Shown piece after piece: positions 23,641 through 55,173 of a DNA stretch of 64,000 nucleotides. The notes below the pieces were generated by a model. That model had not been told where the DNA came from. It worked only from the letters and a program-made list of their open reading frames with translations, and searched no databases. The stretch's first letter is position 1; the number at the start of each line of letters is the position of its first letter. The stretch is from Gautieria morchelliformis (taxonomy: Eukaryota; Basidiomycota; Agaricomycetes; Gomphales; Gomphaceae): contig WHVA01000028.1 of assembly GCA_015179125.1 (NCBI GenBank), positions 248,001-312,000 on the forward strand, read 5' to 3'. Position numbers and translations under genes: made by a program.

Positions 23641-23787
23641 TTTAGGATGATTTTCGTGTCTAACTTCAAATATCAAAGGGGGTTTCCATAGTACGAGACG
23701 ACAGTGAATCGGTCGGAACCGACCTGCATTTCCTAAATCTTTGGCCATTTGTACCTTTCGGACTACTAAGGAGCGAAGTTGGGTATA

Positions 23788-24268
23788 TGTCAGGGGACAC
23801 CCTGTTTTCCATTTCCAGTTCCGACACCACACCCAGTTCCGACTCCATTTCCGACTCCGTTTCCGGTTCCGATTCCATCTCCGCCTCCGCTTTCGGAAAT
23901 GATTCCGCTTCTGGGAGAACTTCCACCAGTTCCGTTCGCCTTGCCAGTTCCACTCCAATTTCCGACTTCCACCCCCGGAACAGTGTCGGAAATCAAGCGA
24001 CTCGCATAATAGGTGGCATCAAGGGTCGATCAAGGGTCAGGGGGATGCAGGGTTGATGGCGGGTGCCAAGTGTTGTCCCTGGCTGCGCAGCGTAGTATAA
24101 TACGGGCTCGCTGACATTGGGGGTCCTTAGACTTTTCTCTTTGGATTTCCCCTTGTCAGGTGAGAATCCCCTCTCTTGTATACTCCGTTCATTTATACAT
24201 ACTTTGGATTTCCCCTTGTCAGTTGTGTGGTAGTGTGATCTCCACGACTAGCCAGGGTTGCCCTTACA
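23788..24268 (+). repeat. 5' LTR of Gypsy family 1
   Basis: 481 bp, TGTCAGG to TTACA. The first 190 bp are packed with TTCCGA-type hexamers. The second half holds two near-copies of CTTTGGATTTCCCCTTGTCAG about 70 bp apart. Confidence 0.95.
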
Positions 24269-27200: not shown

Positions 27201-29537
27201 GCGAATTTGAGCGGACGCGGATAGAGTATCTTGGGGTGATTGTGTCGGAAGGAAAGGTGGAAATGGACCCCGTCAAGGTTTCCGGTGTGTCGGATTGGCC
27301 GGTGCCGCGGAACAAGAAGGAAGTCCAGTCCTTCATTGGGTTTGTCAATTTCTACCGGCGGTTCATCAAGGACTTCTCCTGCCACGCCCGTGCCCTCTTT
27401 GACCTCACCAAGAAGGAGGTTGGATGGCGGTGGGGAGAGCCGGAACAGACTTCCTTTGACAAACTCAAAGAGCTGATCACTTCCGCCCCGGTCCTGATCT
27501 TTCCCGACGACTCTCGCCCTTACCGAGTCGAGGCGGATTCTTCCGACGCAGCTACCGGAGCGGTCTTGTCGCAACAGTCATCGGAAGAAGGCGGGGGGTG
27601 GCATCCGATTGCCTTCTTCTCTAAGAGTCTCAGTCCGGTCGAGCGGAACTACGAGATCCACGACAAGGAGATGCTGGCAATCATCCGAGCGCTGGAGGAG
27701 TGGCGACACTTCCTCGAGGGTGCTCTATGCCCATTTGAGATCTGGACAGACCACAAGAACCTTGAGTATTTCCGCACGTCTAAGAAGTTGAACCGAAGAC
27801 AAGCACGGTGGTCCCTACACCTGTCCCGGTTTGACTTCATGCTCCACCACCGCCCCGGCCGCACCATGGGCAAGCCCGATGCCCTATCCCGCCGTGCGGA
27901 TCATGGAAGCGGAAGCGGAGACAATGCGGATATGACACTGCTCCGCCCAGGTCTCTTCGCAATCCGCGCCCTAGAAGGGGTGACTGCAGTTGGAGCGGAA
28001 GCGGAAACGCTCCGGGACATCCGGAGACAGTACCGGAATGGAGAGAAGGAGGAGTCGGTGGTGAAGGCAGTGGAGGAACTTCGGAAAGGGCACTCACGGT
28101 CTGTACGGGCAGCGGAATGGTCGGAACGGGATGGGCTGCTCCACTTCAGAGGCAAGGTCTACGTTCCAGATGGGGCGGACCTCCGCCGCTGCATCGTGTC
28201 CCAGCACCATGACACGCGGGTCGCTGGGCATGCTGGCAGGTGGAAGACGCTGGAGTTAGTGGCTCGGAATTACTGGTGGCCTCAGATGTCTCGCTACATT
28301 GGACAGTACGTGAAGACATGTGATCTTTGTCTCCGAACCAAAGCGCAACGACATCCACCCGTCGGAGAACTTGTTCCGCTCCCGATTCCCGAATCCCGCT
28401 GGGATACCATCAGCGTCGACTTCATTGTTGAACTCCCAGAGTCTCATGGCTACGACGCGATCATGAACGTCGTGGATTCGGTAAGCAAGGTGTCCCACTT
28501 CATTCCGATGCACACGACGATCACAGCCCTCGGAGCGGCCCGCCTGTTCCTAGCCCACGTCTGGAAGTTGCATGGGCTCCCGAAGCAAGTTGTTTCCGAC
28601 CGAGGTCCGCAGTTTGTTGCGGAACTGACTCGGGAGCTCTACCGCCTGCTCGGCATAAAGCTAGCTACCACCACGGCATACCATCCGCAGGGTGACGGAC
28701 AGACGGAACGGGTCAATCAGGAGTTGGAGCAATATCTCCGCCTCTTTGTCAATGAGAGGCAGGACGACTGGGATGAATTACTTCCGCTGGCGGAATTCCA
28801 ATACAACAACCATGTCCATTCCGCCACACAACAGACTCCCTTCATGCTCGACTCCGGACGACACCCGCGGATGGGCTTCGAACCACGCCAGGCTGAGTCC
28901 CGACTCGAGACGGTCAATGAGTTCTGAGACCGCATGGACTCCACCCTTTCGGAAGCCAAGTCGGCCCTTGCAAAGGCCAAGGATGACATGGCGAGGTACT
29001 ACAACCAACGCCGGGTTCCTGCCCCAGAGTACCAAGTTGGAGACAAGGTGTATCTAGATGCAAGTGACATCCGCACCACACGCCCTTCACAGAAGCTTGC
29101 CCACCGCTACCTTGGGCCCTTCACAGTGACACGGAGGGTTGGACGGAATGCATACCGCCTGCGACTTCCAATGTCCATGTCCCGCCTCCACCCCGTCTTC
29201 AACGTGGTGAAGTTACTCCCTATGCTTGAGGACCCAATTCCAGGTCGGAAGGCTCATCCGCCACCTCTGCCAGAGATTGTAGATGGGGAGGAGCACTATG
29301 TGGTGGAACGGATCCTGGACAGCCGGTTTGTGCGAGGACGACTCCAATTCCTCGTGAAGTGGGAAGGGTATGGGTACGAAGAGAATTCGTGGGTCCCGGA
29401 GCAAGATGTTTCCGCCCCGGACAAGCTCGGGGAGTTCTATAGGACACATCCCGGTGCCCCTCGCCGAATCCGCTTGCTGGCATTTCAATCCCTCGTATCC
29501 CGTGCTTCGAGGACGCAACACGCTAGAGGGGGGGTGA

Positions 29538-30018
29538 TGTCAGGGGACACCCTGTTTTCCATTTCCAGTTCCGACACCACACCCAGTTCCGACTCCATTT
29601 CCGACTCCGTTTCCGGTTCCGATTCCATCTCCGCCTCCGCTTTCGGAAATGATTCCGCTTCTGGGAGAACTTCCACCAGTTCCGTTCGCCTTGCCAGTTC
29701 CACTCCAATTTCCGACTTCCACCCCCGGAACAGTGTCGGAAATCAAGCGACTCGCATAATAGGTGGCATCAAGGGTCGATCAAGGGTCAGGGGGATGCAG
29801 GGTTGATGGCGGGTGCCAAGTGTTGTCCCTGGCTGCGCAGCGTAGTATAATACGGGCTCGCTGACATTGGGGGTCCTTAGACTTTTCTCTTTGGATTTCC
29901 CCTTGTCAGGTGAGAATCCCCTCTCTTGTATACTCCGTTCATTTATACATACTTTGGATTTCCCCTTGTCAGTTGTGTGGTAGTGTGATCTCCACGACTA
30001 GCCAGGGTTGCCCTTACA
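29538..30018 (+). repeat. 3' LTR of Gypsy family 1
   Basis: 481 bp, apparently identical to 23788-24268 and followed by the target duplication GTATA. Confidence 0.95.
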
Positions 30019-35370: not shown

Positions 35371-35954
35371 TGTTACGTATCGAGATTTCCACTAAGTCGG
35401 AACTGGAAAGGACAGCGGCTTCAACTTATAGGTTGCGCCCCCAATGAACTATCGTCCTAGGTATTTCGGAAATGAGTCGGAAGTCGGAAAGTACTGGACC
35501 AGAGGTTTGGTCGGAACTTGTGTCGGAACTGAGGCGGAAAGCGGAAGACGGAAGGCTGAGAGAGAGACTGAGATCTTGCTAGACTCGCTGTGCTAAGAAC
35601 AGGAGATGGAGCGAAGGAAATCAAGTATCAAAGGTGATTATCTGATTGCAGAATAACAGACATACATGAGGGGGTTTTATACAAAACGCAGATCAACAAG
35701 TAATGGTGTTGTACTAAACAAATTCCGGAGGAAGCGGAAGTCGAGTACAATGTGTGGGAACTAACTAATTGGGAACAATGGGACTACAAGGGGGGTTCAG
35801 GGTAAGGTAGAACAATGGCAAAGAATAAGGGGTCGGGAAGTCATATCTGACAACAAACTACAAGGGTGACCGGATATATGGTTTTGATGGATGGCGAGGT
35901 GGGTCCGGTGGGTCCGAGTAATAGAGTCGAAAGAACAAGGGAAATGTACAAGGG
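35371..35954 (-). repeat. 3' LTR of outer Gypsy family 2, larger part
   Basis: Reverse-oriented LTR beginning TGTTACGTATCGAG on the plus strand. It is interrupted at AAGGG by the inner element and resumes at 43981. Confidence 0.9.
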
Positions 35955-36648
35955 TGTTACGACCTTTCATTTCCGACTTCCGACCCTCAGTTCCGCCATA
36001 CATTCCGCCTCTCCAATAGTTCCGCCACATGTTCCGCCCCTCCGACATTTCCGCCATTCCGCCCCTTGTACATTTCCCTTGTTCTTTCGACTCTATTACT
36101 CGGACCCACCGGATCTACCTCGCCATTCATCAAAACCATATATCCGGTCACCCTTGTAGTTCGTTGTCAGATATGTTTTCCCGACCCCTTGTTCTTTGCC
36201 ATTTGTTCTACCTTACCCTGAACCCCCCTTGTAGTCCCATTGTTCCCAGTTAGTTAGTTCCCACACATTGTACTCGACTTCCGCTTCCTCCGGAATTTGC
36301 TTAGTACAACACCATTACTTGTTGCTCTGCGCTTTGTATAAAACCCCCCTCATGTATGTCTGTTATTCTGCAATCAGATAATCACCTTCGATACTTGATT
36401 TCCTTCGCTCCATCTCCTGTTCTTAGCACAGCGAGTCTAGCAAGATCTCAGTCTCTCTCTCAGCCTTCCGTCTTCCGCCTTCCGCCTCAGTTCTGACTCA
36501 AGTTCCGACCAAACCTCTGGTCCAGTACTTTCCGACTTCCGGCTCATTTCCGAAATACCTAGGACGATAGTTCATTGGGGGCGCAACCTATAAGTTGAAG
36601 CCGCTGTCCTTTCCAGTTCCGACTTAGTGGAAATCTCGATACGTAACA
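35955..36648 (+). repeat. 5' LTR of inner Gypsy family 2
   Basis: TGTTACG to CGTAACA. It starts with about ten TTCC-G pentamers within 130 bp. A TATA box (TATAAAA) lies at 36337-36343. Confidence 0.93.
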
Positions 36649-39600
36649 GTATTATCTGATTCCCACCCGATAACTATCACTATGCCTCCTCGTACCACAG
36701 CTACTTCAGCTCGAGCAGGAGCTGTCGAAGCTCTCTCTTATTTTGGCAATCTTAGATCCGCAGCACCAAGGCACGCGGAACCCCCAGCAGCTCTCGTGCC
36801 GACGATGAGCTTTCCGATGCTTTTCCGCAACGTTTCGAAGAAGTTCCCGACACTAATCCCGACGAAAATCCCGACTACGACGGGAATTCAACGAGTAGCA
36901 GCGGCGAACAAACAGCAGCGTCATTCCGACGCCCAGCTCCACCACCACCACCTCCAGGCGGCCCTCCAGGCGGCCCTCATGGCGGCCCACCCGGCGGCCC
37001 CCCAGGCGGTCCTCCCGGCGGTCCTCCACCTCCAATTCCACCTCAGATTCCCGCCAACCCAGTTCCGCCCGCGCCAGTTCCGGATCTTGCACAAGCCATC
37101 GCCATGCTAGCCGGACAACTCCAGCGCCCGGCCCAAGCACCACCACGCCCCAAGACAAAGGTCCGCGAACCAGATCAGTTCGACGGTTCCGACCCCAAGA
37201 AGCTCCAGCCATTTCTGGTCCAGCTTCAACTCAACTTCCGCGATCGTCCTGACGCCTTTCCCGACGACGAACGAAAGGTCAACTATGCCCTTTCCTATCT
37301 CCGAGGCACGGCTCTCGACTACTTCGAGCCCGCCCTCATGGATCCGTTCGCTCTCGTCGACTGGGCCGACGATTACCCCAATTTCATTTCCGAACTCCGC
37401 AGCAACTTCGGACCATTTGACATGGAAGCCGATGCGGAAAATGAACTCGATAAGCTTCGCATGAAAGACACTCATAAGATAGCTAAATATATCGTCACGT
37501 TTCAGCAGCTCGCTCCTCGAGTCCAATGGGGAGAAGCCGCACTCCGACGCCAGTTTTACATGGGCTTGCCATCCCGCATCAAGGATGAAATTGCCCGCGT
37601 CGGAAAACCCGCCACCCTTACCGACCTCCGCAACCTCGCCCAATCCATCGATTCGCGCTACTGGGAAAGACATTCCGAGATCGCTCGTGAAACTTCCACC
37701 CAGAGCAAGAACGACAAGTCTTCCGACAAGAAGTCTGATAAAGACAAGAAGAAGACCAATTCCGGAAACACCAACTCCGGAAACAACAACAACAACAGTT
37801 CCGGATCCAACTCCGGCAACCGGAACAACAACAACACCCCTCGGAACAACCAGGCCTCTGGTTCTAACACCAACGCCCGGAAGAGCACCCCGGATCTTTC
37901 CGACAAACTTGGGAAGGACGGAAAACTAACCCCTGTAGAACGCCAGCGTCGCATGGACAACAACCTTTGCCTCTTCTGCGGCAAAGGAGGTCACGTCGCT
38001 CGCCACTGCACTCGCGCTTCCGCCTCCGCTGCCAAGGCCAAGGGCCGCGCAGCAAAGACGGAAGAGAAATCCGAAGCGGTTCCCGCTGCGGATTCAAAAA
38101 AATAGTCAGCAGTCCTCCGGCCTCCGCACGAGCTGAGGGCTGTGTTGACCCCATTCGTGCGACAAACGAGGTTAAACTCAACGCATCCGCTCTTTCGTCC
38201 TCCGACTCTCTCTCTGTTCCGCTCACTTCCGACACCATTTCCGCACCCCCGTTTACAGCACTGGTCGACTCCGGTTCGACTCATTGTTTCCTCGATTCCG
38301 ACTTTGTTTTGAAACATAAACTTCCGACCTGCAACATTCCGACTATTCCGCTCCGCCTTTTCGACGGGTCTTCCAACACGGGAATTTCCCAAGTTGTAGA
38401 TCTGTCTATCCGTTTCGCTACTGGGGACAACCATGAAGTTACGTTTTACGTTACTCCGCTAGATGCTAGCTGTTCCGTTGTACTAGGACACAATTGGCTC
38501 ACCCGATATAATCCGTCGATTAACTGGGCATTGGGTCAAATACAGTTCCGTACCCCGGATCAACTTCCGTCTATTCCGACGTCTTCTGCAAAGATGGCTC
38601 AGGCCTCTTCCGCAACTCCGCTCGTGGATTCAGTTCCGCACTCCGGTCCCGCTTTAGCACCTCCGCCCCTCGAAGCTCCTCGAATTGCGCTCGTTTCCGC
38701 CACCGCTTTCCGCGTATTGCAACGGCAAGATGATATGACCGTCTTCCAGCTTCACCTCTCCGATTCGGCTTCAGTCAAGGCTCGTTCCGCCTCGACTTCC
38801 GCTCCGGTCGACATGAGCTCAGTTCCGGAAGAATATCGTGACTTCCCGGACGTGTTCAATAAGGCCAAAGCCGACAAACCTGCTGAACATCGACCTTACG
38901 ACTTGAAATAGATTTGGAAGAAGGAGCATCTCCGCCCCTTGGACCGATCTACTCTCTTTCGCAAAGTGAACTCCTAACTCTCCGAGAGTTCGTCGATGAA
39001 CATCTCAACATGGGCTTTATCCGCCCTTCGCTGTCTCCGCACGGCGCTCCGGTCCTCTTCGTCAAGAAGAAGGATGGATCTCTCCGCCTCTGCGTCGATT
39101 TCCGCGGACTCAATGCCCTCACTAAAAAGGACAAATATCCGCTTCCGCGCATTTCCGACTTACTCGACACTCCCCGCAGGGCGAAGATCTACACCAAAAT
39201 TGACCTCCGGCACGCTTATCACCTTGTCCGCATCCGGGAAGGTGACGAGTGGAAAACCACCTTCCGCACCCGCTACGGCGCTTTTGAGTGGGTTGTCATG
39301 CCTTTTGGTCTAACCAATGCTCCCGCCGCTTTTCAGCGATTCATGAACGACGTATTTTCCGACCTCCTCGACGTATGCGTTCTAGTCTACATTGACGACA
39401 TCCTCATCTATTCCGACACACCGGAAAAACATCGGAGAACATGTCCGCGAAGTACTCCGCCGTCTCCGCAAACATCATCTCTACGCAAAAGCAGAGAAAT
39501 GCGAATGGCATCGCGACACGGTCGAATACCTCGGCTACATCCTCTCTCCAACAGGTCTTACCATGGCAGAGGACAAGGTCAAGGCAATTCAAGAATGGCC

Positions 39601-42013
39601 GGAACCCCGACGTGTTAAGGATGTACAGTCTTTCCTTGGCTTCGCCAACTTTTACCGGCGTTTCATTTATAATTTTTCCGACATTACTGTTCCGCTCACG
39701 CGTCTCACCAGAAAGGGTGCCCCATGGAATTTCACACCGGAATGCCGTTCCGCATTTGAAGCTCTCAAATCGGCCTTCACCACGGCTCCCATACTCGGTT
39801 TCTGGATTCCTGATGCCCAACTTGTACTCGAAACCGACGCTTCTGACTACGCGCTAGCCGCCATTCTTTCCATCATTTCACCCGACGATGGAGAAATTCA
39901 TCCGATCGCTTTCATTCCCGCACCTTTTCCGCCCCGGAACTCAACTACGACGTCCACGATAAGGAACTACTTGCGATTTTCGAAGCCTTCAAAATCTGGA
40001 GACATTACCTCGAAGGTCCAACTTATCCGATCGACGTTGTAACGGATCATAAGAACCTTGAGTATTTTGCAACCACTAAGATTTTGACTCGCCGTCAAGT
40101 CCGCTGGTCTGAATACCTCTCACAGTTCAACATGGTGATCCGTTTCCGCCCCGGAAAGCTCGGAGCAAAACCCGACGCACTCACTAGACGTTGGGACGTC
40201 TACCCAAAAGAGGGAAGTAGCGACTATGCCAGCGTTAATCCGCACAATTTCCGCCCAGTATTCTCCACTGAGCAACTGGCATCGTCCCTGCGTGCCACAG
40301 CATTGCAGTTTCCACTACTCCGCGCCTCAATTATTATGGACACCGAGTCTCTCCGTTCCGACATCCGTTCCGCACTCCGTTCCGACCCCACCTCCGCAGC
40401 CCACCTCGATGACCCCACCAGTCCTGGATGGTCCCTCGATTCCGACGGATTTCTCCGGTACAAGTCCCGGATTTACGTTCCGGACACCAACGATCTACGA
40501 CTTCGCGTGCTCCAGCAAAGCCACGATCATCCGCTCTCAGGACACCAAGGCCAGAACAAGACCCTCGACATAATCCGACGCACCTATACTTGGCCTCTCC
40601 TCCGCACGATGGTCCAAGACTACTGCAAGTCATGCACCACCTGTATGCGAGCCAAGCCTCAACGTCACAAACCCTACGGCCTCCTGAAGCAACTTCCGAT
40701 CCCGGATCAACCCTGGAATTCGATATCCATGGATTTCATTGAGAAACTTCCTAAGTCATCCGGCTATGATACCATTCTAGTGATCGTTGACCGCCTTACA
40801 AAGCAGTCCATCTTTATTCCGACCTACGACACCATAACTTCCGCCCAGCTCGCACAGCTCTTTGTGCTCCACGTCTTTTCCAAGCACGGAATCCCTTCCC
40901 ATGTCACTTCCGACCGTGGATCCGAATTCGTGTCCTCCTTTTTCCGCACACTCGGCAAGGCTCTCGACATGAAGCTCCACTTCACTTCCGGTTATCACCC
41001 CGAAGGAGACGGACAAACGGAACGTACTAATCAGACCCTTGAGCAGTATCTCCGCGTCTATTGCAACTACCAACATAGCAATTGGTCCGACCTTCTTCCG
41101 CTCGCGGAATTTGCCTACAACAATGCGCCTTCCGCTACCACCGGAATTTCACCCTTTTACGCCAACAAGGGCTACCACCCGAATCTCGCCATCCACCCGA
41201 ACGCGACCTCGCCTCTGCAAGAGCCCGAGATTTCGTTGTGGAACTTGACGACCTTCACCAGCACCTCCGAGAGAACATTACCGCTGCCCAGAAGAGATAC
41301 CAAACTTCCGCCGATCGGAAACGCCTTCCGCAACCGGCATTCGAGATAGGCGACAAAGCCTTTGTCAAAGCGGAAAACTTCCGCACCACTCGCCCCTCGA
41401 AGAAGCTCTCTGAGAAATACCTCGGTCCTTACGAGATCATCGCTAAGGCCGGCAGTCGTTCTTTCACCCTCAGACTTCCTGACAATATGCGCGCAGTACA
41501 TCCGGTATTCCATGTCTCCATGCTTGAACCCGCAGTTCCGAATACAATTCCGAATCGAGAACAACCTCCGCCTCCGCCAGTCGTCATCGACGGAGAACCG
41601 GAATATGAGATTTCGGAAATTCTCAACTCCAAGCTCGACAGAAGATACCGCTGCCAACTCCAGTACCTAGTCAAGTGGGCAGGCTATGAAAACACTGACG
41701 AAGAGACTTCGTGGATTTCCGCCACGGAACTTGACCACGCCTCTGACCTCGTCTCTGATTTCCACAAGTCATATCCTGACAAGCCTGGCCCCATTTCCAC
41801 GCCCTAGTCATTTCCGACCTCATTTCCGACGCCCATTGATTCTTACAGTTCTCAAGTCATTTGTCAAAATCCGATTAATTTCCCGTTACTCTATTTTCCG
41901 ACACTTCAAGAAATTATCTACAAGTCCTTGATACCCCTACTCCTCCCCCATTGTCTCCGCCTCGACCTCTTTTTCCGCTTCCGGCTCTTTTTCCGCCTCC
42001 CCTACCTCGACAC

Positions 42014-43161
42014 TCACCAACTCCATTTCCACCCTTTCCCTCGTTTCCGCCCCCCCGCTCGGACCCGCTTCCTCCCCAATTCCCTGCTCCCGCAGCGCGC
42101 ATCCATTCGGTCCCGGACCAGATCATTCCGCCACCGCATTTCCCGCGTCAACTGCTGCAGGACTGTAGACATGACAGTCATCTGGTTCTGAATTGACAGA
42201 ACCTGATGCTGCTGAACCTCTGCCATGTCGACCATGATGTCCCGGATCTCGCGTTGCTGTTCCCGCATGGCCCTCAGCGACCCGGCAATGTCAAGGAGCG
42301 GAGAAGCCATGGTGAACCGGTTCAACACCGCCTGTGCCGACTTTCCGGTCACCGGAAAGATTCCTCGGCCCTCCCTCCGCTCGGTCCCGGTTCCGCCTTC
42401 GGATTTGACTCCTCAACCTTCTGTTTCTTTCGCTCCAGCCTCGAAGCGCACCCGTCCACAACGCAGCGCCTTTTCCTGTCACGGCACTGGTCGCACGACG
42501 TTTCCCGTGGATTGCTCGACCACGTGCAATCCACCCCCTTAGACTCGCATGGGTCACAAGGGGCCTTTTCCTCATCGCCGTCCCGAGTTTTCCGCTTCTT
42601 AGTCGCGGGATTTCCGGCCCCAGTTCACGGAGTTCTAACATCCGACTCAACTTCTCCTTTCGAGCCTTCTGGAATGCGTCCGCTCGAGTTTTCCGTTCCG
42701 CCACAAGGTTCACCGGGGTCGCAATCTCCTTTTGCTTCCCTTTTCCTTCCGGAGTCGGTGTACTTTCCGCCGAACCTTCCGAGTCTGACTCTGACTCGTC
42801 CTGAACATGATTCTGGAAGAACTCTAGTTAATTTCAAGATCATTTCCGCCGGACATTTCCCACTCACCTGATCCCTTTCCGCTTTCTCCGCAGCCGCTTT
42901 CTCTGCAGCAGCCTTGTCCGCAGCAGCCTTCCGTGCCGCGTTCCGTTTCCGTTTCTCTTCACGGACGCGCTCCTCCTCCTCGCGGCGTTCGCGCTCTTTC
43001 CTCTCCTGCTCCTTCCGCTCCTTCTCCCGACGTTCTTTCTCTTTCCGCGCAGCTTCCTCAGCCTCGCGTTTCTCGGCCATTTCCTTTTGCGCGAGCATAT
43101 CAGCGAAGTGCTGTTTCATCTCCGCGCTGGACATCTTAGAGAAATCTACTGGGGCACTCAT
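42014..43161 (-). CDS. Antisense accessory coding region of the inner Gypsy copy
   Basis: Lies between the chromodomain end of pol and the 3' LTR but is read on the opposite strand, starting about 120 bp inside the 3' LTR (MSAPVDFSKMSSAEMKQHFA). The first 100 residues are an almost pure Lys/Glu/Arg helix (EREERRREKE-like), a strong coiled-coil candidate, ending in Ala/Lys repeats. A later part has the cysteine pattern CxxC-x6-C ... CxxC-x6-C-x4-C followed by a basic run (DRKRRC, RLERKKQK). The last part is another helix (LDIAGSLRAMREQQREIRDI, VLQQLTREMRWRNDL). It appears as several ORF segments. The same region is present in the outer copy, which argues that it is a genuine part of this family. 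I do not recognise a described homologue. Confidence 0.65.
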
Positions 43162-43283
43162 GATGGAATAGAGAGAAGACGCGTTTGTCTTCCAGCCTAT
43201 ATTTCAAACTCCGACGCGTTTGTTCACAGGTCACGTGATTCCGACTTGTGGTCTCGCGGGGCTCGACCTTAGAAGGGAGATAC

Positions 43284-43975
43284 TGTTACGACCTTTCATT
43301 TCCGACTTCCGACCCTCAGTTCCGCCATACATTCCGCCTCTCCAATAGTTCCGCCACAGTTCCGCCCCTCCGACATTTCCGCCATTCCGCCCCTTGTACA
43401 TTTCCCTTGTTCTTTCGACTCTATTACTCGGACCCACCGGATCTACCTCGCCATTCATCAAAACCATATATCCGGTCACCCTTGTAGTTCGTTGTCAGAT
43501 ATGTTTTCCCGACCCCTTGTTCTTTGCCATTTGTTCTACCTTACCCTGAACCCCCCTTGTAGTCCCATTGTTCCCAGTTAGTTAGTTCCCACACATTGTA
43601 CTCGACTTCCGCTTCCTCCGGAATTTGCTTAGTACAACACCATTACTTGTTGCTCTGCGCTTTGTATAAAACCCCCCTCATGTATGTCTGTTATTCTGCA
43701 ATCAGATAATCACCTTCGATACTTGATTTCCTTCGCTCCATCTCCTGTTCTTAGCACAGCGAGTCTAGCAAGATCTCAGTCTCTCTCTCAGCCTTCCGTC
43801 TTCCGCCTTCCGCCTCAGTTCGACTCAAGTTCCGACCAAACCTCTGGTCCAGTACTTTCCGACTTCCGGCTCATTTCCGAAATACCTAGGACGATAGTTC
43901 ATTGGGGGCGCAACCTATAAGTTGAAGCCGCTGTCCTTTCCAGTTCCGACTTAGTGGAAATCTCGATACGTAACA
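43284..43975 (+). repeat. 3' LTR of inner Gypsy family 2
   Basis: Near-identical to 35955-36648. Followed by AAGGG, the second copy of the target duplication. Confidence 0.93.
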
Positions 43976-43980
43976 AAGGG

Positions 43981-44088
43981 GCGGAATGGCGGAAATGTCG
44001 GAGGGGCAGAACGTGTGGCGGAACTATTGGAGAGGCGGAATGTATGGCGGAACTGAGGGTCGGAAGTCGGAAATGAACGGTCGTAACA
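43981..44088 (-). repeat. 3' LTR of outer Gypsy family 2, remaining part
   Basis: 108 bp that complete the LTR interrupted at 35954. Together the two parts give 692 bp, matching the other family-2 LTRs. Confidence 0.9.
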
Positions 44089-44210
44089 GTATCTCCCTTC
44101 TAAGGTCGAGCCCTGCGAGACCACAAGTCGGAATCACGTGACCTGTGAACAAACGCGTCGGAGTTTGAAATATGGGCTGAAGGACAAACGCGTCTTCTCT
44201 CCATTCCATC

Positions 44211-45433
44211 ATGAGTGCCCCAGTAGATTTCTCTAAGATGTCCAGCGCGGAGATGAAACAGCACTTCGCTGATATGCTCGCGCAAAAGGAAATGGCTGAG
44301 AAACGCGAGGCTGAGGAAGCTGCGTGGAAAGAGAAAGAACGTCGGGAGAAGGAGCGGAAGGAGCAGGAGAGGAAAGAGCGCGAACGCCGCGAGGAGGAGG
44401 AGCGCGTCCGTGAAGAGAAACGGAAACGGAACGCGGCACGGAAGGCTGCTGCGGACAAGGCCGCTGCAGAGAAAGCGGCTGCGGAGAAAGCGGAAAGGGA
44501 TCAGGTGAGTCGGAAATGTCCGGCGGAAATGTCCTTGAAGTTAACTAGAGTTCTTCCAGAATCATGTTCAGGACGAGTCAGAGTCAGACTCGGAAGGTTC
44601 GGCGGAAAGTACACCGACTCCGGAAGGAAAAGGGAAGCAAAAGGAGATTGCGACCCCGGTGAACCTTGTGGCGGAACGGAAACTCGAGCGGACGCATTCC
44701 AGAAGGCTCGAAAGGAGAAGTTGAGTCGGATGTTGGAACTCCGTGAACTGGGGCCGGAAAATCCCGCGACTAAGAAGCGGAAAACTCGGGACGGCGATGA
44801 GGAAAAGGCCCCTTGTGACCCATGCGAGTCTAAGGGGGTGGATTGCACGTGGTCGAGCAATCCACGGGAAATGTCGTGCGACCAGTGCCGTGACAGGAAA
44901 AGGCGCTGCGTCGTGGACGGGTGCGCTTCGAGGCTGGAGCGAAAGAAACAGAAGGTTGAGGAGTCAAATCCGAGGCGGAACCGGGACCCAGCGGAGGGAG
45001 GGCCGAGGAATCATTTCCGGTGTCCGGAAAGTCGGCACAGGCGGTGTTGAATCGGTTCACCATGGCTTCTCCGCTCCTCGACATTGCCGGGTCACTGAGG
45101 GCCATGCGGAAACAGCAGCGTGAAATCCGGGACATCATGATCGAGATGGCCGAGGTTCAGCAGCATCAGGTTCTGTCAATTCAGAACCAGATGACTGTCA
45201 TGTCTACCGTCCTGCAGCAGTTGACGCGGGAAATGCGGTGGCGGAACGATCTGGTCCGGGACCGAATGGATGCGCGGCTGCGGGAGCAGGAGTTGGGGCG
45301 GAAGCTGGTCGAGCGGTGGGGCGGAAACAAGGGAAAGGGTGGAAACGGAGTTGGTGAGTGTCGAGGTAGGGGAGGCGGAAAAAGAGCCGGAAGCGGAAGA
45401 AGAGGTCGAGGCGGAGACAATGGGGAGGAGTAG
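44211..45433 (+). CDS. Antisense accessory coding region of the outer Gypsy copy
   Basis: The counterpart of 42014-43161, here on the plus strand because its host element is reversed. It opens with the same MSAPVDFSKMSSAEM start about 120 bp from the 3' LTR, then the charged helix, the Cys motif (CDPCESKGVDC, CDQCRDRKRRC) and the C-terminal helix with QHQVLSIQNQMTVM. The two copies differ at scattered positions but keep the same domain order and cysteines. No function can be assigned from sequence alone; nucleic-acid binding and oligomerisation are inferences. Confidence 0.65.
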
Positions 45434-48400
45434 GGGTCGAATAACTTGTAACATAGTTTCTTGAAGTGTCGGAATCATAATGGAAAATTAGTCGGAAATG
45501 TGTGTGACTTAAGAACCGTAAGAAATGGGGGATCGGAAGTGGGGTCGGAATTGACTAGGGCGCGGAAACGGGGCCAGGCTTATCAGGATATGACTTGTGA
45601 AAGTCAGAGACGAGGTCAGAGGCGTGGTCAAGTTCCGTGGCGGAAATCCACGAAGTCTCTTCGTCAGTGTTTTCATAGCCTGCCCACTTGACTAGGTACT
45701 GGAGTTGGCAGCGGTATCTTCTGTCGAGCTTGGAGTTGAGAATTTCCGAGATCTCATATTCCGGTTCTCCGTCGATGACGACTGGCGGAGGCGGAGGTTG
45801 TTCTCGATTCGGAATTGTATTCGGAACTGCGGGTTCAAGCATGGAGACATGGAATACCGGATGTACTGCGCGCATATTGTCAGGAAGTCTGAGGGTGAAA
45901 GAACGACTGCCGGCCTTAGCGATGATCTCGTAAGGACCGAGGTATTTCTCAGAGAGTTTCTTCGAGGGGCGAGTGGTGCGGAAGTTTTCCGCTTTGACAA
46001 AGGCTTTGTCGCCTATCTCGAATGCCGGTTGCGGAAGCGTTTCCGATCGGCGGAAGTTTGGTATCTCTTCTGGGCAGCGGTAATGTTCTCTCGGAGGTGC
46101 TGGTGAAGGTCGTCGAGTTCCACAACGAAATCTCGGGCTCTTGCAGAGGCGAGGTCGCGTTCAGGGTGGATGGCGAGATTCGGGTGGTAGCCCTTGTTGG
46201 CGTAAAAGGGTGAAATTCCGGTGGTAGCGGAAGGCGCATTGTTGTAGGCAAATTCCGCGAGTGGAAGAAGGTCGGACCAATTGCTATGTTGGTAGTTGCA
46301 ATAGACGCGGAGATACTGCTCAAGGGTCTGATTAGTACGTTCCGTTTGTCCGTCTCCTTCGGGATGATAACCGGAAGTGAAGTGGAGCTTCATGTCGAGA
46401 GCCTTGCCGAGTGTGCGGAAAAAGGAGGACACAATTCGGATCCACGGTCGGAAGTGACATGGGAAGGTATTCCGTGCTTGGAAAAGACGTGGAGCACAAA
46501 GAGCTGTGCGAGCTGGGCGGAAGTTATGGTGTCGTAGTCGGAATAAAGATGGACTGCTTTGTGAGGCGGTCAACGATCACTAGAATGGTATCATAGCCGG
46601 ATGACTTAGGAAGTTTCTCAATGAAATCCATGGATATCGAATTCCACGGTTGTTCCGGGATCGGAAGTTGCTTCAGGAGGCCGTAGGGTTTGTGACGTTG
46701 AGGCTTGGCTCGCATACAGGTGGTGCATGACTTGCAGTAGTCTTGGACCATCGTGCGGAGGAGAGGCCAAGTATAGGTACGTCGGATTATGTCGAGGGTT
46801 TTGTTCTGGCCTTGGTGTCCTGAGAGCGGATGATCGTGGCTTTGCTGGAGCACGCGAAGTCGTAGATCGTTGGTGTCCGGAACGTAAATCCGGGACTTGT
46901 ACCGGAGAAATCCGTCGGAATCGAGGGACCATCCAGGACTGGTGGGTCATCGAGGTGGGTGCGGAGGTGGGGTCGGAACGGAGTGCGGAACGGATGTCGG
47001 AATGGAGAGACTCGGTGTCCATAATAATTGAGGCGCGGAGTAGCGGAAACTGCAATGCTGTGGCACGCAGGGACGATGCCAGTTGCTCAGTGGAGAATAC
47101 TGGGCGGAAATTGTGCGGATTAACGCTGGCATAGTCGCTACTTCCCTCTTTTGGGTAGACGTCCCAACGTCTAGTGAGTGCGTCGGGTTTTGCTCCGAGC
47201 TTTCCGGGGCGGAAACGGATCACCATGTTGAACTGTGAGAGTATTCAGACCAGCGGACTTGACGGCGAGTCAAAATCTTAGTGTTGCAAAATACTCAAGG
47301 TTCTTATGATCCGTTACAACGTCGATCGGATAAGTTGGACCTTCGAGGTAGTGTCTCCAGATTTTGAAGGCTTCGAAAATCGCAAGTAGTTCCTTATCGT
47401 GGACGTCGTAGTTGAGTTCCGGGGCGGAAAAGGTGCGGGAATGAAAGGCGATCGGATGAATTTCTCCGTCGTCGGGTGAAATGATGGAAAGAATGGCGGC
47501 TAGCGCGTAGTCAGAAGCGTCGGTTTCGAGTACAAGTTGGGCATCAGGAATCCAGAAACCGAGTATGGGAGCCGTGGTGAAGGCCGATTTGAGAGCTTCA
47601 AATGCGGAACGGCATTCCGGTGTGAAATTCCATGGGGCACCCTTCCTGGTGAGACGCGTGAGCGGAACAGTAATGTCGGAAAAATTATAAATGAAACGCC
47701 GGTAAAAGTTGGCGAAGCCAAGGAAAGACTGCACATCCTTAACACGTCGGGGTTCCGGCCATTCTTGAATTGCCTTGACCTTGTCCTCTGCCATGGTAAG
47801 ACCTGTTGGAGAGAGGATGTAGCCGAGGTATTCGACCGTGTCGCGATGCCATTCGCATTTCTCTGCTTTTGCGTAGAGATGGTGTTTGCGTAGACGGCGG
47901 AGTACTTCGCGGACATGTTCCCGATGTTTTTCCGGTGTGTCGGAATAGATGAGGATGTCGTCAATGTAGACTAGACGCATACGTCGAGGAGGTCGGAAAA
48001 TACGTCGTTCATGAATCGCTGAAAAGCGGCGGGAGCATTGGTTAGACCAAAAGGCATGACAGTCCACTCAAAAGCACCGTAGCGGGTGCGGAAGGTGGTT
48101 TTCCACTCGTCACCTTCCCGGATGCGGACAAGGTGATAAGCGTGCCGGAGGTCAATTTTGGTGTAGATCTTCGCCCTGCGGGGAGTGTCGAGTAAGTCGG
48201 AAATGCGCGGAAGCGGATATTTGTCCTTTTTAGTGAGGGCATTGAGTCCGCGGAAATCGACGCAGAGGCGGAGAGATCCATCCTTCTTCTTGACGAAGAG
48301 GACCGGAGCGCCGTGCGGAGACAGCGAAGGGCGGATAAAGCCCATGTTGAGATGTTCATCGACGAACTCTCGGAGAGTTAGGAGTTCACTTTGCGAAAGA

Positions 48401-50689
48401 GAGTAGATCGGTCCAAGGGGCGGAGATGCTCCTTCTTCCAATCTATCTTCAAGTCGTAAGGTCGATGTTCAGCAGGTTTGTCGGCTTTGGCCTTATTGAA
48501 CACGTCCGGGAAGTCACGATATTCTTCCGGAACTGAGCTCATGTCGACCGGAGCGGAAGTCGAGGCGGAACGAGCCTTGACTGAAGCCGAATCGGAGAGG
48601 TGAAGCTGGAAACGGTCGTATCATCTTGCCGTTGCAATACGCGGAAAGCGGTGGCGGAAACGAGCGCAATTCGAGGGCTTCGAGGGGCGGAGGTGCTAAA
48701 GCGGGACCGGAGTGCGGAACTGAATCCACGAGCGGAGTTGCAGAAGAGGCCTGAGCCATCTTTGCGGACGACGTCGGAATAGACGGAAGTTGATCCGGGG
48801 TACGGAACTGTATTTGACCCAATGCCCAGTTAATCGACGGATTATATCGGGTGAGCCAATTGTGTCCTAGTACAACGGAACAGCTAGCATCTAGCGGAGT
48901 AACGTAAAACGTAACTTCATGGTTGTCCCCAGTAGCGAAACGGATAGACAGATCCACAACTTGGGAAATTCCCGTGTTGGAAGACCCGTCGAAAAGGCGG
49001 AGCGGAATAGTCGGAATGTTGCGGGTCGGAAGTTTATGTTTCAAAACAAAGTCGGAATCGAGGAAACAATGAGTCGAACCGGAGTCGACCATGCTGTAAA
49101 CGGGGGTGCGGAAATGGTGTCGGAAGTGAGCGGAACAGAGAGAGAGTCGGAGGACGAAAGAGCGGATGCGTTGAGTTTAACCTCGTTTGTCGCACGAATG
49201 GGGTCAACACAGCCCTCAGCTCGTGCGGAGGCCGGAGGACTGCTGACTATTTTTTTGAATCCGCAGCGGGAACCGCTTCGGATTTCTCTTCCGTCTTTGC
49301 TGCGCGGCCTTTGGCCTTAGCAGCGGAGGCGGAAGCGCGAGTGCAGTCGCGAGCGACGTGACCTCCTTTGCCGCAGAAGAGGCAAAGGTTGTTGTCCATG
49401 CGACGCTGGCGTTCTACAGGGGTTAGTTTTCCGTCTTTCCCAAGTTTGTCGGAAAGATCCGGGGTGCTCTTCCGGGCATTGGTGTTAGAACCAGAGGCCT
49501 GGTTGTTCCGAGGGGTGTTGTTGTTGTTCCGGTTGCCGGAGTTGGATCCGGAACTGTTGTTGTTGTTGTTTCCGGAGTTGGTGTTTCCGGAATTGGTCTT
49601 CTTCTTGTCTTTATCAGACTTCTTGTCGGAAGACTTGTCGTTCTTGCTCTGGGCGGAGGTTTCACGAGCAATCTCGGAGTGTCTTTCCCAGTAGCGGAAT
49701 CGATGGATTGAGCGAGGTTGCGGAGGTCGGTAAGGGTGGCGGGTTTTCCGACGCGGGCAATTTCATCCTTGATGCGGGATGGCAAGCCCATGTAAAACTG
49801 GCGTCGGAGTGCGGCTTCTCCCCATTGGACTCGAGGAGCGAGCTGCTGAAACGTGACGATATATTTAGCTATCTTATGAGTGTCTTTCATGCGAAGCTTA
49901 TCGAGTTCATTTTCCGCATCGGCTTCCATATCAAATGGTCCGAAGTTGCTGCGGAGTTCGGAAATGAAATTGGGGTAATCGTCGGCCCAGTCGACGAGAG
50001 CGAACGGATCCATGAGGGTGGGTTCGAAATAGTCGAGCGCCGTGCCTCGGAGATAGGAAAGGGCATAATTGACCTTTCGTTCGTCGTCGGGAAGGCGTCG
50101 GGACGATCACGGAAATTGAGTTGAAGCTGGACCAGAAATGGCTGGAGCTTCTTGGGGTCGAACCGTCGAACTGATCTGGTTCGCGGACCTTTGTCTTGGG
50201 GCGTGGTGGTGCTTGGGCCGGGCGCTGGAGTTGTCCGGCTAGCATGGCGATGGCTTGTGCAAGATCCGGAACTGGCGCGGGCGGAACTGGGTTGGCGGGA
50301 TTCTGAGGTGGAATTGGAGGTGGAGGACCGCCGGGAGGACCGCCGGGTGGGCCGCCATGAGGGCCGCCTGGAGGGCCGCCTGGAGGTGGTGGTGGTGGAG
50401 CTGGGCGTCGGAATGACGCTGCTGTTTGTTCGCCGCTGCTACTCGTTGAATTCCCGTCGTAGTCGGGATTTTCGTCGGGATTAGCGTCGGGAACTTCTTC
50501 GAAACGTTGCGGAAAGGCATCGGAAAGCTCATCGTCGGCACGAGAGCTGCTGGAGGGTTCCGCGTGCCTTGGTGCTGCGGATCTAAGATTGCCAAAATAA
50601 GAGAGAGCTTCGACAGCTCCTGCTCGAGCTGAAGTAGCTGTGGTACGAGGAGGCATAGTGATAGTTATCGGGTGGGAATCAGATAATAC

Positions 50690-51382
50690 TGTTACGTATC
50701 GAGATTTCCACTAAGTCGGAACTGGAAAGGACAGCGGCTTCAACTTATAGGTTGCGCCCCCAATGAACTATCGTCCTAGGTATTTCGGAAATGAGCCGGA
50801 AGTCGGAAAGTACTGGACCAGAGGTTTGGTCGGAACTTGAGTCGGAACTGAGGCGGAAGGCGGAAGACGGAAGGCTGAGAGAGAGACTGAGATCTTGCTA
50901 GACTCGCTGTGCTAAGAACAGGAGATGGAGCGAAGGAAATCAAGTATCGAAGGTGATTATCTGATTGCAGAATAACAGACATACATGAGGGGGTTTTTAT
51001 ACAAAGCGCAGAGCAACAAGTAATGGTGTTGTACTAAACAAATTCCGGAGGAAGCGGAAGTCGAGTACAATGTGTGGGAACTAACTAATTGAGAACAATG
51101 GGACTACAAGGGGGGTTCAGGGTAAGGTAGAACAATGGCAAAGAACAAGGGGTCGGGAAAACATATCTGACAACGAACTACAAGGGTGACCGGATGTGTG
51201 GTTTTGATGGATGGCGAGGTGGGTCCGGTGGGTCCGAGTAATCGAGTCGAAAGAACAAGGGAAATGTACAAGGGGCGGAATGTCGGAAATGTCGGAGGGG
51301 CGGAACGTGTGGCGGAACTATTGGAGAGGCGGAAAGAGTGGCGGAACTGAGGGTCGGAAGTCGGAAATGAACGGTCGTAACA
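50690..51382 (-). repeat. 5' LTR of outer Gypsy family 2
   Basis: 693 bp, TGTTACG to CGTAACA in plus-strand reading; drives gag-pol leftward. Confidence 0.92.
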
Positions 51383-51790
51383 GAACAAAACATCCAGAAT
51401 ATTATCCAGAACAATCCAGAATTGCTGTTTCACCTCCTGAAGTAACTGTAGACTTGTTTGATAGCTACAGAGCTTATTTCTTGATAGATTTCTCTAATTC
51501 TTTGTTGAGAGTCTACTATAACTGGCTACACTATACTGTTCCAAAAGTGAGAGCTTCGGACCCCTAGTTCCTCTGTTCTCACCTGTTTCTTCCTCGACTC
51601 GGTCATGTGACCTACATCAATCAGTGACGCACTCGCCCCACAGAGCTTAGTCAGCTCACGCATATACCGTGCACAGGGGTGCACGAAGAGTCCCCACTCC
51701 CTGAGTCATCAAATATATCAATTCTGATATATCTGATCTATTATTCCTAAAACTAAATGGTTGTTTTAAAGGCTTTTGATGCAGAATACA
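51383..51790. other. Region between Gypsy family 2 and a gag fossil
   Basis: AT-rich, without ORFs of note. It contains short inverted motifs (ATATATC...GATATAT near 51715-51735). It may be the leader or LTR remnant of the following gag fossil. Confidence 0.35.
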
Positions 51791-53345
51791 AATTTACAGT
51801 AAGGAGACAATTTGAAGGCTGGTTGAACAGCTTAATCCGAGACTATACAGTATGCTGGTTGAACAGCAGTTCCCATACACTGAGCCATATGCCGGAGGTT
51901 CAGACCTTGAAGAGTTTGAGGGATTTGTAGCGGGCATCTTGGGATGGCTCAAGATGAATTGCCTATTAGGGCCAACCACTGTGCAGATGCAGGTGGATTA
52001 CCTGGGCACTTGCCTAACCGGCGAGGCCCAAGAATGGTTCATTCGAAACATTGAGCATTTCAATCTTCAGGTCTGTGAATGGACCTTGGAAATGGCTATG
52101 CAAGGGTTGCAGAAGAGATTCATGCACACCCTCACATATCACCATGCGTCAAATAAGTTTGACGTGGTAGTGCAAGGCTCGAAAACTGTTCAGGAAATGC
52201 TGAACAAGCTCATGCAATACTTGGTGCGGATGATACAGCTGCCCAATGAATACACGCTCCAAAGGTGGTTCATGTCAGCATTGTGTGATACATTGTGCAA
52301 TGAAGTCCTAAAGAAGGGCTACAACGCCGAGTCGAGCTTGATCGAGCAGCTTTTTGAAGCTGCCCAGATGATCGAGGAGGCATCCCGGTATAATCAAGGG
52401 ATGTGCTGGGCAGAAACCACAGCTGCAACGGCCATGACATCACGGCTCACAACAAGCAAGCCAGCCACACAGTTGAGGTTTAACAAGCCCACTGCATTCC
52501 AGGCAAACAATGCTTCCAACGGGCTATGACAACAAAGTCGCCACAATCAGGTCATCCACCTGAGGCGAAGCCGAGCTATCCACAAAAGCTGTCTGGCCAC
52601 CTCCCAGACCAGCCGCAAAACGCCCACAGCAGTGCAAACTGCTTTGAATGTGGCCAGACAGGTCACATCAAGGCAAATTGCCCATGCCTGAAGCCAAAAG
52701 TATGGACAGCGGCCGCATGGCAAGATGATGATGGGGATCCGGAGGATCCCATCGACACCTCTCTTCAGGAGATTGAAGAGGGGGAGGGTGACCCTCAGGC
52801 AACTGAGGATCAGGACAGGAACGGTGAGCTGACAGAGGCTTGGGAGCCAGAGCCATCCCAATACTACGATTGGGATGCGGACATGGCAGACAATCAGACT
52901 GCCTACTGATCCAGCGCGATTAGAATTGCGCCGGTAGACGAGACAGCCAAAGTCATGGCTGCTTGAATGGTGGCCCCAGACAAGGCAGCCGAACCGATGT
53001 ATCATCATCGGAACAAACACTGCACACGGCCTGCACGGCCCCATAGCGAGAACCATACCCTGTCGGGGTACTGGGAGATCAACGGCACAAAGGCCCACTG
53101 TCTACTAGACAGCAGAAGCAAAGGGGTATTACTATCCCCCAAATTCACCTGTGCCACTGGCATCAAAACATTTGCCTTGGAACAGCCAATTGCCCTGCAA
53201 TTGGTGTGCATCGGTAGTTGATCAATAATCAACTACGGGACAAACACGACCATCAAATTTGGCGAAACAGTCGAAGAATACTTCAACGTGGTGAACGTCG
53301 AGTACTATGACGCTATCTTGGGGACTGGACCTTGCGGACCCACTG
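51790..53345 (+). mobile_element. LTR-element gag-protease fossil
   Basis: Part of another LTR retrotransposon on the plus strand: a retrotransposon gag core (LGTCLTGEAQEWFIRNIEHF and further helices) at about 51.85-52.5 kb, a zinc knuckle (CFECGQTGHIKANC) near 52.65 kb, and a retropepsin-like stretch (GTKAHCLLDSRSKGVLLSP) near 53.1 kb. No RT or integrase follows and no LTR pair is recognisable. Broken in several places, CpG-poor and probably old. Confidence 0.75.
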
Positions 53346-53489
53346 TATAGTTCTTCCGTGGGAATCCTCCTGGATTCCCCAGCTTAATCTTACCTGTAAC
53401 TGTCACTACATTGTATTAGAATCACCACAGATTGGTTGAGTTCTACTGCCTTGTGACAACACAAGTACTAAGCCACACATCTTACATGT

Positions 53490-55060
53490 GTTGACCCCAT
53501 TCATGTGACTAACGAGGTTCAACTCAACACATCCGCTCTTTCGTCCTCTGACTCCCTCTCAATCCCACTAACCTCCAACACAATGTCTGCACCTCCTTTT
53601 ACTGCACTGATCAACTCTGGTTCAACTTATTGTTTCCTCAACTCCAACTTTGTTCTCAAAGACAAACTTATGTCCCACAATATTCTGACAATTCACTTGG
53701 CTATTTCACAAGTTGTGGACCTGTCCATCTGCTTCACTACTGGGAACACCCATGAAGTTACGTTTTACATTACTCCGCCAGATGCTAGGTGTTCCATTGT
53801 ACTAGGACACAATTCGCTCACCCAATATAATCTGTCAGTTGACTGGGCATTGGGCCATATACAGTTCCATACCCTGGATCAGTTTCCATCTATTCCAACC
53901 TCTGTAAGGGCAACCCTAGCTAGCTGTGGATATCACACTACCACAGAACTGACAAGGGAAATCCAAAATATACATATAAATGAACAGAATACACAAGAGA
54001 GAGGATTCTCACCTGACAAGGGGAGATCCAACGAGAAAAGTATAAGGACCCCCAATCCCAGCAAACCTGTATTATACTATGCTATTCCGCAGCCAGGGAC
54101 AACACTTGGCACTCGCCATCAACCCTGCATTCCCCTGACCCCCCTGACCCTTGACCGACCCTTGATGCCACATACTACGCGAGTTGCTTGACTTCCAGCA
54201 CTGTTCTGAAAGCAGAAGTCAGAGAGTGGAGTGGAATTGGCAAAGCAAACAGAACTGGTGGAAGATCCCCCAGACATGGAACCATTTCCAAAAGCAGAGT
54301 TGGAGATGGAACCAGAACTGGAACCAGAGTCGGAAATGGAAGCGGAACTCATGGTGGTGTCAGATCTGGAAAACAGGGTGTCCCCTGACAACCTCCTCCA
54401 CAAAGATGGTTAAAACCTCTTCTGCAACTCCAATTGTGGATTAAGTTCCACACTCCAGTCCACTGGTAGCAACTCCGACCCCTCCTCCAATCGAAGCTTC
54501 TCAAATCACCCTCGTTTCTGCTACCACTTTTCACTTGCTACACTGACAAGATTCAACTATTTTTCAGCTTCACCTCTCCAAATCCGCTCCAGTCAAGACT
54601 CGTTCTGCCTCAACTTCCGTCCTGGTCATGATGAGCTTAGTTCCAGAAGAATATCACCACTTCCCAGACATGTTCAACAAGGCCAAAGCCAATAGACCTG
54701 CTGATCATCGACCTTATGACCTAAAGATAGATCTTGAAGAAGGAGCATCTCTGCCCCTCAGACCACTCTACTCTCTTTCACGGAGTGAACTCCAAACTCT
54801 GCGCAAATTCATCAATGAACATCTCAACATGGGCTTTATCTGCCCTTTGCTGTCTCTGCACGGCACTCCTGTCCTTTTTGTCAAGAAGATGGATGGATCT
54901 CTCCACCTCTGCATTGATTTCCAGACTCAATGCTCTTACCAAAAAAGACAAATATTTGCTTCCACACATTTCCAACCTCCTCAATACTCCATGCAAGGTG
55001 AAGATCTACACCAAAATTGACTGGCATGCTTATCACCTTGTCCAAATCTGAGGTGATTAA
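53490..55060 (+). mobile_element. Old relative of Gypsy family 2, protease-RT fossil
   Basis: A decayed internal fragment on the plus strand. About 53.5-53.9 kb matches the protease region of family 2 and about 54.4-55.05 kb matches the start of its RT. It is interrupted at 53903-54390 by a solo LTR of family 1. CpG sites present in the young family-2 copies are mostly TpG or CpA here. Broken in many places; clearly older than the copies at 35-51 kb. Confidence 0.85.
53903..54390 (-). repeat. Solo LTR of Gypsy family 1
   Basis: 488 bp in reverse orientation, similar along its length to the 481-bp LTRs at 23.8 and 29.5 kb but diverged. Flanked by ACCTC on both sides (53898-53902 and 54391-54395). 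A solo LTR left by LTR-LTR recombination after insertion into an already present family-2 relative. Confidence 0.88.
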
Positions 55061-55173
55061 GGCATGCATGTGCATGGTGAGCAGTACACCAACAGTGTAC
55101 AGCTTCCCAATGGTGCTCCCGAGTATCTGGTGCTTCCATCAGGCATCCAGGTATGGCCAATCCTGAAGCGCAC

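Follow-up and report, generated by a model that had tools for sequence, protein, structure and literature searches.

The window analysed in the current study, a stretch of 64,000 nt from contig WHVA01000028.1 of Gautieria morchelliformis (all positions follow the numbering of this window), contains two copies of a chromodomain Ty3/Gypsy retrotransposon, copy A (nt 35955–43975, + strand, 8021 bp) and copy B (nt 35371–51382, – strand, interrupted by copy A). Between pol and the 3' long terminal repeat (LTR), each carries an additional gene that reads antisense to gag-pol. This antisense gene is the only part of the element that occurs in several old versions on near-identical copies. Judging from the sequence comparisons described below, it is very probably an exchangeable cassette that has been swapped by recombination, so that old types are found on young backbones. 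What is new here is the bimodal identity of the gene among elements with near-identical backbones. An earlier note on the window had described the antisense coding region in both copies and had found that they share its start, cysteines and succession of domains, and this holds, while several of its details are revised below.

Gene types on shared backbones

In six elements (L015, L016, L018, L020, L023 and L024) gag, pol and the LTRs are mostly 96–100% identical to those of copy A, while the antisense gene is mostly 67–81% identical. Two of these, L023 and L024, are whole insertions flanked by 5-bp duplications, and their own LTRs are 99.8% and 100% identical; a duplication was seen in five of the ten loci tested. 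When the window type is compared with the six young elements that carry other types, synonymous divergence (dS) amounts to 1.213 for exon 2 of the gene (60 pairs) and to 0.050 for pol (78 pairs). A wider comparison covered the 496 pairs among 32 elements with both segments, using 687 alignment columns at the 3' end of pol. Of these pairs, 135 share at least 98% identity in the pol 3' end, and their exon 2 sequences fall into separate groups, with 95–100% identity in 74 pairs, 85–89% in two and 65–79% in 59. Gene versions carried by copies with near-identical LTR and pol thus diverge at roughly 30% of their bases. The diverged block extends from about 50 bp before the ATG of the gene to the stop codon of pol (at 50-bp resolution), and because it starts so close to the ATG, the leader is for the most part backbone. 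Exchange has occurred inside the gene also, since L018 and L024 agree as far as the cysteine cluster but are only 72–82% identical behind it.

The copies on which this study is based number 56 (54 fetched loci and the two of the window), of which 52 gave a gene model; in L043 and L050 the cysteine motif was not found, and in L010 and L061 the donor or acceptor was unusable. All were picked by their match to the gene, so that the share of elements without it was not measured, and close and diverse copies were hand-picked from match lists, so that the proportions given here are not genome-wide frequencies.

An alternative is that the gene region mutates faster than the rest of the element, with no exchange of cassettes. 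In its favour, backbone and cassette identities are correlated (Spearman 0.33 between pol and cassette, 496 pairs), and 2476 of 3193 informative triples are concordant. These concordant triples weigh against exchange, as does the weak resolution of the pol tree, in which one branch of 29 is starred. The correlation between pol and LTR is, by comparison, 0.77 (136 pairs), and the other 717 triples are discordant. Against faster mutation stands, in addition, the bimodal identity of the gene at equal pol divergence. On the pol tree, which contains eight changes of cassette type, the approximately unbiased (AU) test rejected the window-type rows as one clade (p 0.0023), and likewise a clade of seven other-type rows (p 1.9e-5). 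Lastly, L015 is nearer to copy A of the window (WA) in pol (98.8%, versus 95.8% to L022), and nearer to L022 in exon 2 (88.9%, versus 71.5% to copy A). On the strength of the bimodal identity, the AU tests and the L015 identities, faster mutation was rejected as the explanation of the cassettes, and is regarded as very improbable.

Structure, constraint and product of the antisense gene

The gene extends from nt 43161 down to nt 41937 in copy A, and from nt 44211 up to nt 45433 in copy B. Its start had been placed by the earlier note about 120 bp inside the 3' LTR, but the ATG of copy A (nt 43161) lies 122 bp from the LTR (nt 43284–43975, + strand, with flanking duplication AAGGG), on the internal side, and the distance is the same in copy B. 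It is 120–123 bp in all 13 loci, among 20 ten-kb loci, that had both edges measurable, and the coding region therefore starts beside the LTR rather than within it. The leader between LTR and ATG occupies nt 43162–43283 (– strand) in copy A and nt 44089–44210 (+ strand) in copy B. That of copy A, seen in an alignment of 19 copies, contains the complement of the polypurine tract, a conserved CACGTG box and an AT-rich box, all of presumed function. At the other end the gene and pol lie tail to tail, with about 120–130 bp between gene end and pol stop, and in copy A this spacer (nt 41808–41936) is inside the diverged block. The usual stop codon in copy A is at nt 41937–41939, past the end at nt 42014 originally proposed. 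In all 20 loci the gene and the matches to pol lie on opposite strands; the sole pol match of L009 has 39% identity and lies on the far side, and those of L013 resemble a nested second element. In L013 and L014 a second element is seemingly nested between the antisense gene and pol, as extra direct repeats and low-identity pol matches are present.

Every model has two exons, and the intron is a feature that the original description of the coding region lacked. In copy A (– strand), exon 1 (nt 42868–43161, 98 codons from the ATG) specifies the amphipathic start and the ER/K helix, and is followed by an intron of 55 nt (nt 42813–42867, GTGAGT...CAG, phase 0) and by exon 2 (nt 41937–42812), with an acidic and basic linker, a Zn2Cys6-like cluster and a C-terminal coiled coil. 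In copy B (+ strand, opposite to its gag-pol) the corresponding parts are exon 1 (nt 44211–44504, 98 codons), the intron (nt 44505–44559, 55 nt, GTGAGT...CAG) and exon 2 (nt 44560–45433, stop at nt 45431–45433), the cysteine cluster being located at nt 44814–44909. Introns of the 52 models are 49–57 nt in length. Several donor forms were permitted in the modelling, and all 52 use GTGAGT; the acceptor is CAG in 45 and TAG in seven, and a branch-like box is present in 47. Intron length modulo 3 takes all three values (27, 18 and 7 copies), and despite this variation 47 of the 52 models have an acceptor that keeps the cysteine frame in phase, an in-phase acceptor having been favoured where present. 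Intronless (spliced) copies were not found in a search with two junction patterns and up to 3 mismatches. Antisense transcription predicts such a lack, yet it is no proof of splicing, and to that extent it counts against a spliced gene.

The antisense frame is almost certainly a real protein-coding gene, as judged by its substitution pattern; it is under purifying selection and has been kept as protein in many copies, and the constraint that the earlier note called for is thus present. Ratios of nonsynonymous to synonymous substitution (dN/dS) were calculated from intact exons only (33 copies per exon, with L059 left out of the exon 1 alignment). For exon 1 they are 0.231 among close pairs (dN below dS in 76 of 83), 0.168 among middle pairs (57 of 57) and 0.110 among distant pairs (385 of 385); the corresponding values for exon 2 are 0.163 (54 of 57), 0.193 (64 of 64) and 0.181 (407 of 407). 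As controls, the two remaining frames on the gene's own strand give 1.38–1.74, and the three on the opposite strand give, in exon 1, 1.16, 0.245 and 2.30, and in exon 2, 1.16, 0.358 and 2.09. The one frame with dN below dS tells against a constraint peculiar to the gene frame; it is probably a shadow of that frame, cast through shared third positions, and is weaker than the gene frame itself. Constraint differs along the protein, the N-terminus being strictest (0.03–0.04) and the tail loosest (0.84). In diverged copies that were not filtered for intactness, substitution rates at the three codon positions are 0.175/0.141/0.395 in exon 1 (32 copies) and 0.234/0.162/0.452 in exon 2 (36 copies), and pairwise alignment gaps are multiples of 3 in 56 of 72 cases in exon 1, 85 of 127 in exon 2 and two of 56 in the intron. 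Relative to L028, 51 of 72 gaps in exon 1 are 15, 30 or 45 nt long (47 copies), and the ER/K helix accordingly appears to shift in length by units of five residues.

Could these antisense open reading frames (ORFs) be non-coding or due to chance, and do nothing as protein? In both window copies the frame of exon 2 is disrupted, exon 1 alone being intact, and 30 of the 52 models lack an intact form of at least one exon (exon 1 is intact in 34, exon 2 in 33 and both in 22). Chance frames would, however, have to be reconciled with a dN/dS of 0.11–0.23, with gap phase and codon-position rates in the unfiltered copies, with cysteines that are invariant in 18 aligned copies, and with the 115 stop-free stretches among the 143 matches listed, and are considered extremely improbable.

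The earlier note had also raised the question of whether other copies of the element carry the region, and it could be modelled in 52 of the 56 copies picked by match to the gene. Protein searches of the organism's own genome found the cysteine module of copy B at no fewer than 150 places, its C-terminal part likewise at 150 or more, and exon 2 of another type (from which the stop-free stretches above derive) at 143 or more; the three match lists overlap in part, and the counts are lower bounds. No relative was detected by tblastn among 132 pattern matches in viral contigs or among 100 in the genomes of bacteria and archaea. Fungal hosts typically have Zn2Cys6 proteins, and the gene might thus be a captured host gene that merely hitch-hikes on the element. 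Against this reading speak the constancy of its position, its antisense orientation and the long-lasting constraint seen across many diverged copies, and capture is judged improbable; no copy of a host gene was among the matches listed, which could not have shown one. At L062 (nt 1532–4801 of that locus, + strand) the antisense gene continues in one open frame into helitron-like sequence, which we take to encode helitron Rep and helicase, and a helitron has probably inserted at the gene.

The product, of about 390 residues, consists of an amphipathic start, a helix rich in Lys, Glu and Arg, an acidic linker, a basic run (KKRKTR), the cysteine cluster and a long C-terminal helix. The first helix had previously been read as a coiled coil. 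Its composition is as described, but core hydrophobics amount to 1–9% in the seven copies tested, heptad hydrophobics are absent from all seven, and it looks like an ER/K-type single helix with no zipper. The coiled coil is instead the second, C-terminal helix, as its heptad hydrophobics indicate: 0–9 of 300 shuffles reached the observed value. This second helix was correctly noted at the outset; AlphaFold, run on two sequences, gives it as one helix of about 100 residues (23–123; mean predicted local distance difference test score, pLDDT, 79.8 for the C-terminal part). No basic region of the basic leucine zipper (bZIP) type adjoins it.

The cysteine motif was also recognised earlier, as CxxC-x6-C twice, and its full spacing is C-x2-C-x6-C-x10-C-x2-C-x6-C. 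All six cysteines, and a seventh, are invariant in 18 of 18 aligned copies. The Zn2Cys6 consensus is C-x2-C-x6-C-x(5-12)-C-x2-C-x(6-8)-C. The spacing fits this consensus of the Zn(2)-Cys(6) family (PF00172), with which the product also shares the basic run and a coiled-coil partner helix, and the Pfam Zn_clus profile matched all 18 aligned members at E values up to 10, the best being 1.7e-4. Several results weigh against a zinc cluster of this family. In the scores shown Zn_clus reaches 14.3–15.6 bits, under the curated cut-off of 21, and the two halves are reversed (the first half matches profile positions 15–35 and the second 2–13), so that the basic half does not come first. AlphaFold modelled the cysteine module of the two window copies poorly (pLDDT 53.9), Foldseek found no match to this model, and a profile search of the PDB gave no zinc-cluster chain and one chance match (E 0.28). 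A search of NCBIfam gave three isolated matches, the best at E 0.031. The product is a probable DNA-binding protein, and we moderately favour a role as nuclear regulator.

The elements in the window and their surroundings

Copy A is nested in the 3' LTR of copy B, flanked by the 5-bp duplication AAGGG. Its 5' LTR (nt 35955–36648, + strand; ends TGTTACG...CGTAACA) equals the 3' LTR in 690 of 690 aligned bases, with 4 gap columns. The gag-pol region (nt 36756–41807, + strand) is divided among several overlapping frames and ends with the pol stop codon at nt 41805–41807; matches to Retrotrans_gag, RVP_2, RT_RNaseH, Integrase_H2C2, rve, Tf2-1 SH3 and Chromo were obtained from Pfam, and reverse transcriptase (RT) of the element family was recognised by tblastn between copies. 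With gag, protease, RT-RNaseH, integrase and chromodomain, the family belongs to the chromoviruses. The insertion has parted the 3' LTR of copy B into a gene-side piece (nt 43976–44088, – strand) and a second piece (nt 35371–35954, – strand). The gag-pol of copy B, also in several frames, occupies nt 45555–50710 (– strand, pol stop at nt 45555–45557) and forms inverted repeats with copy A, and its 5' LTR (nt 50690–51382, – strand) is identical to the parted 3' LTR in 675 of 694 aligned bases.

The pentamer TTCCG and its complement CGGAA are dense in young Gypsy elements (nt 35955–43975, 44089–51382 and 23787–29836 of the window, and L008–L027). The LTR of copy A has 26 sites per kb, nine times the order-1 expectation, and its sense strand has 17 TTCCG to one CGGAA. 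Densities per kb are 17 in gag-pol, 16.7 in the family-1 element and 1.6–2.8 in the flanks tested, with a drop at the ends of the elements. Within the antisense gene (22 related copies pooled), the preceding codon is NCG in 197 of 246 cases before GAA and in 80 of 205 before GAG. The idea that CGGAA sites serve the zinc protein is weakened by the family-1 element, which shows no match to the antisense gene and is equally rich in the sites.

Next to copy B, nt 51400–55100 hold a remnant of a related element, with 83–86% identity to copy A in three pol stretches; it has only 1.6 CGGAA/TTCCG per kb, and some sites read TTCCA instead, as expected from CpG decay. Elsewhere in the window, a long ORF at nt 15942–19928 (– strand), with endonuclease, reverse transcriptase and RNase H, represents a non-LTR retrotransposon, and nt 1920–5731 (– strand) carry a host gene for RNA-dependent RNA polymerase (RdRP; Pfam RdRP), a component of RNA silencing.

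Possible mode of action and comparison with known systems

A sequence of steps can be proposed for the gene. A promoter in the conserved 122-bp leader would drive an antisense mRNA, from which the intron is spliced out; the intron would survive retrotransposition because the genomic RNA holds only its complement, and in this way it records which strand is the mRNA. The nuclear protein would dimerise through the C-terminal coiled coil, reach DNA by means of the Zn2Cys6-like cluster on the stiff ER/K arm, and act as a regulator of the element, with transcription or chromatin state as the likeliest target. Cassettes and backbones would be newly combined when reverse transcription switches templates between RNAs packaged together; recombination at high frequency within a family is described for Onsen of Arabidopsis (PMC5668417). 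To these three steps (antisense spliced mRNA, nuclear DNA-binding regulator, exchange by template switching) a single joint confidence applies, and as a whole they are rated somewhat likelier than not.

In a fourth step, several diverged cassettes would persist since a type, while rare, evades some agent that follows the sequence of the cassette. The first candidate is homology-dependent silencing, because the diverged block is about where sense and antisense transcripts would overlap, and because the host has RNA interference (RNAi) genes (RdRP matches on five contigs and Piwi matches on three). A review of plant elements suggests that antisense transcripts may yield small interfering RNAs that inhibit retrotransposition (PMC7264820). 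Silencing would start from the overlap between antisense mRNA and genomic RNA, and an element with a newly recombined cassette would evade the small RNAs directed against common types. That escape of this kind keeps the types is a tentative proposal. Against the proposed steps as a whole it counts that, if types are specificities, they have no difference beyond the cassette to recognise, and type-specific control of LTR, gag or pol is disfavoured for that reason. Alternatively, the protein itself may counter a host silencing or restriction factor and owe its diversity to an arms race. The restriction of the diversity to one accessory gene and the presence of RdRP, Piwi and DNA methylase genes would suit such a conflict, but dN/dS between types is low (0.11–0.18), only the tail segment being near 0.84, and an arms race is considered rather unlikely.

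The view that no described fungal LTR element carries such a gene is not supported, as brtn, an antisense accessory gene of Boty-like elements of Botrytis cinerea, is in print (Zhao et al. 2011, Virology 417:248, as cited in PMC7264820, PMC8365987 and PMC4227169). Both are additional antisense genes in a fungal Ty3/Gypsy LTR element, and gag, zinc finger, RT, integrase and chromodomain are listed together for the Boty-like element (PMC4227169). The host of brtn is an ascomycete, the comparison is by description and not by sequence, and the accessible descriptions of brtn speak neither of splicing nor of a zinc cluster or an exchange of cassettes. In plant LTR elements, too, antisense accessory genes are known, and the aORF-3R genes agree with the present one in position (between pol and 3' LTR, opposite in strand to gag-pol), and in possible DNA binding or nuclear location (PMC11963269, PMC7264820). 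They differ in their domains, cassette polymorphism is unmentioned in the accessible parts of these accounts, and the word intron is absent from PMC11963269. No described case from a basidiomycete was found in the literature searched, which is no proof of absence, nor was one in which an intron, a zinc cluster or different types of cassette are described.

LTR retrotransposons have long been known to carry antisense accessory genes, to which no role was assigned. The present gene lends itself to dating, to classification by type and to testing, and elements that have the same backbone and different gene versions amount to a natural swap experiment. HBZ of human T-cell leukaemia virus type 1 (HTLV-1) is an antisense, spliced, nuclear regulator encoded near the 3' LTR, and the earlier note had likened the antisense gene to it. 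Like HBZ, the gene is antisense, adjoins the 3' LTR, has an intron to be spliced, and probably specifies a nuclear, DNA-binding protein. HBZ is, however, a bZIP factor, and its antisense promoter is within the HTLV 3' LTR (PMC7264820), whereas here the ATG is outside the LTR, the protein has no basic leucine zipper, and a putative metal cluster replaces that domain. Since the first helix lacks zipper hydrophobics there is no bZIP likeness; kinship with HBZ is not supported, and the analogy is one of position only. That the gene is a functional counterpart, an antisense regulator of LTR transcription, is possible but doubtful.

For the persistence of types, the main rival to silencing is a type-specific self-limitation like the copy-number control of Ty1, in which an element's own type is restrained and foreign cassettes escape. 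What distinguishes Ty1' from canonical Ty1 is an exchanged segment of gag, which determines how specific this control is to each (PMC7055915), and there, as here, a diverged module has been gained by recombination on a related backbone. The Ty1 module is a sense-strand gag derivative, while the cassette does not come from gag and is an independent antisense gene. As there is hardly any difference between types in gag, pol and LTR, such control could be aimed only at the cassette or at the product that it encodes, and self-limitation is considered fairly unlikely. By analogy with the immunity region of temperate phages, the gene may be regarded, again tentatively and with slightly less confidence than the role of silencing itself, as a type-determining locus, with several old types kept by frequency-dependent selection while a backbone sweeps and silencing as the likely agent. 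If selection does keep the types, they would make this a retrotransposon population with something like immunity groups.

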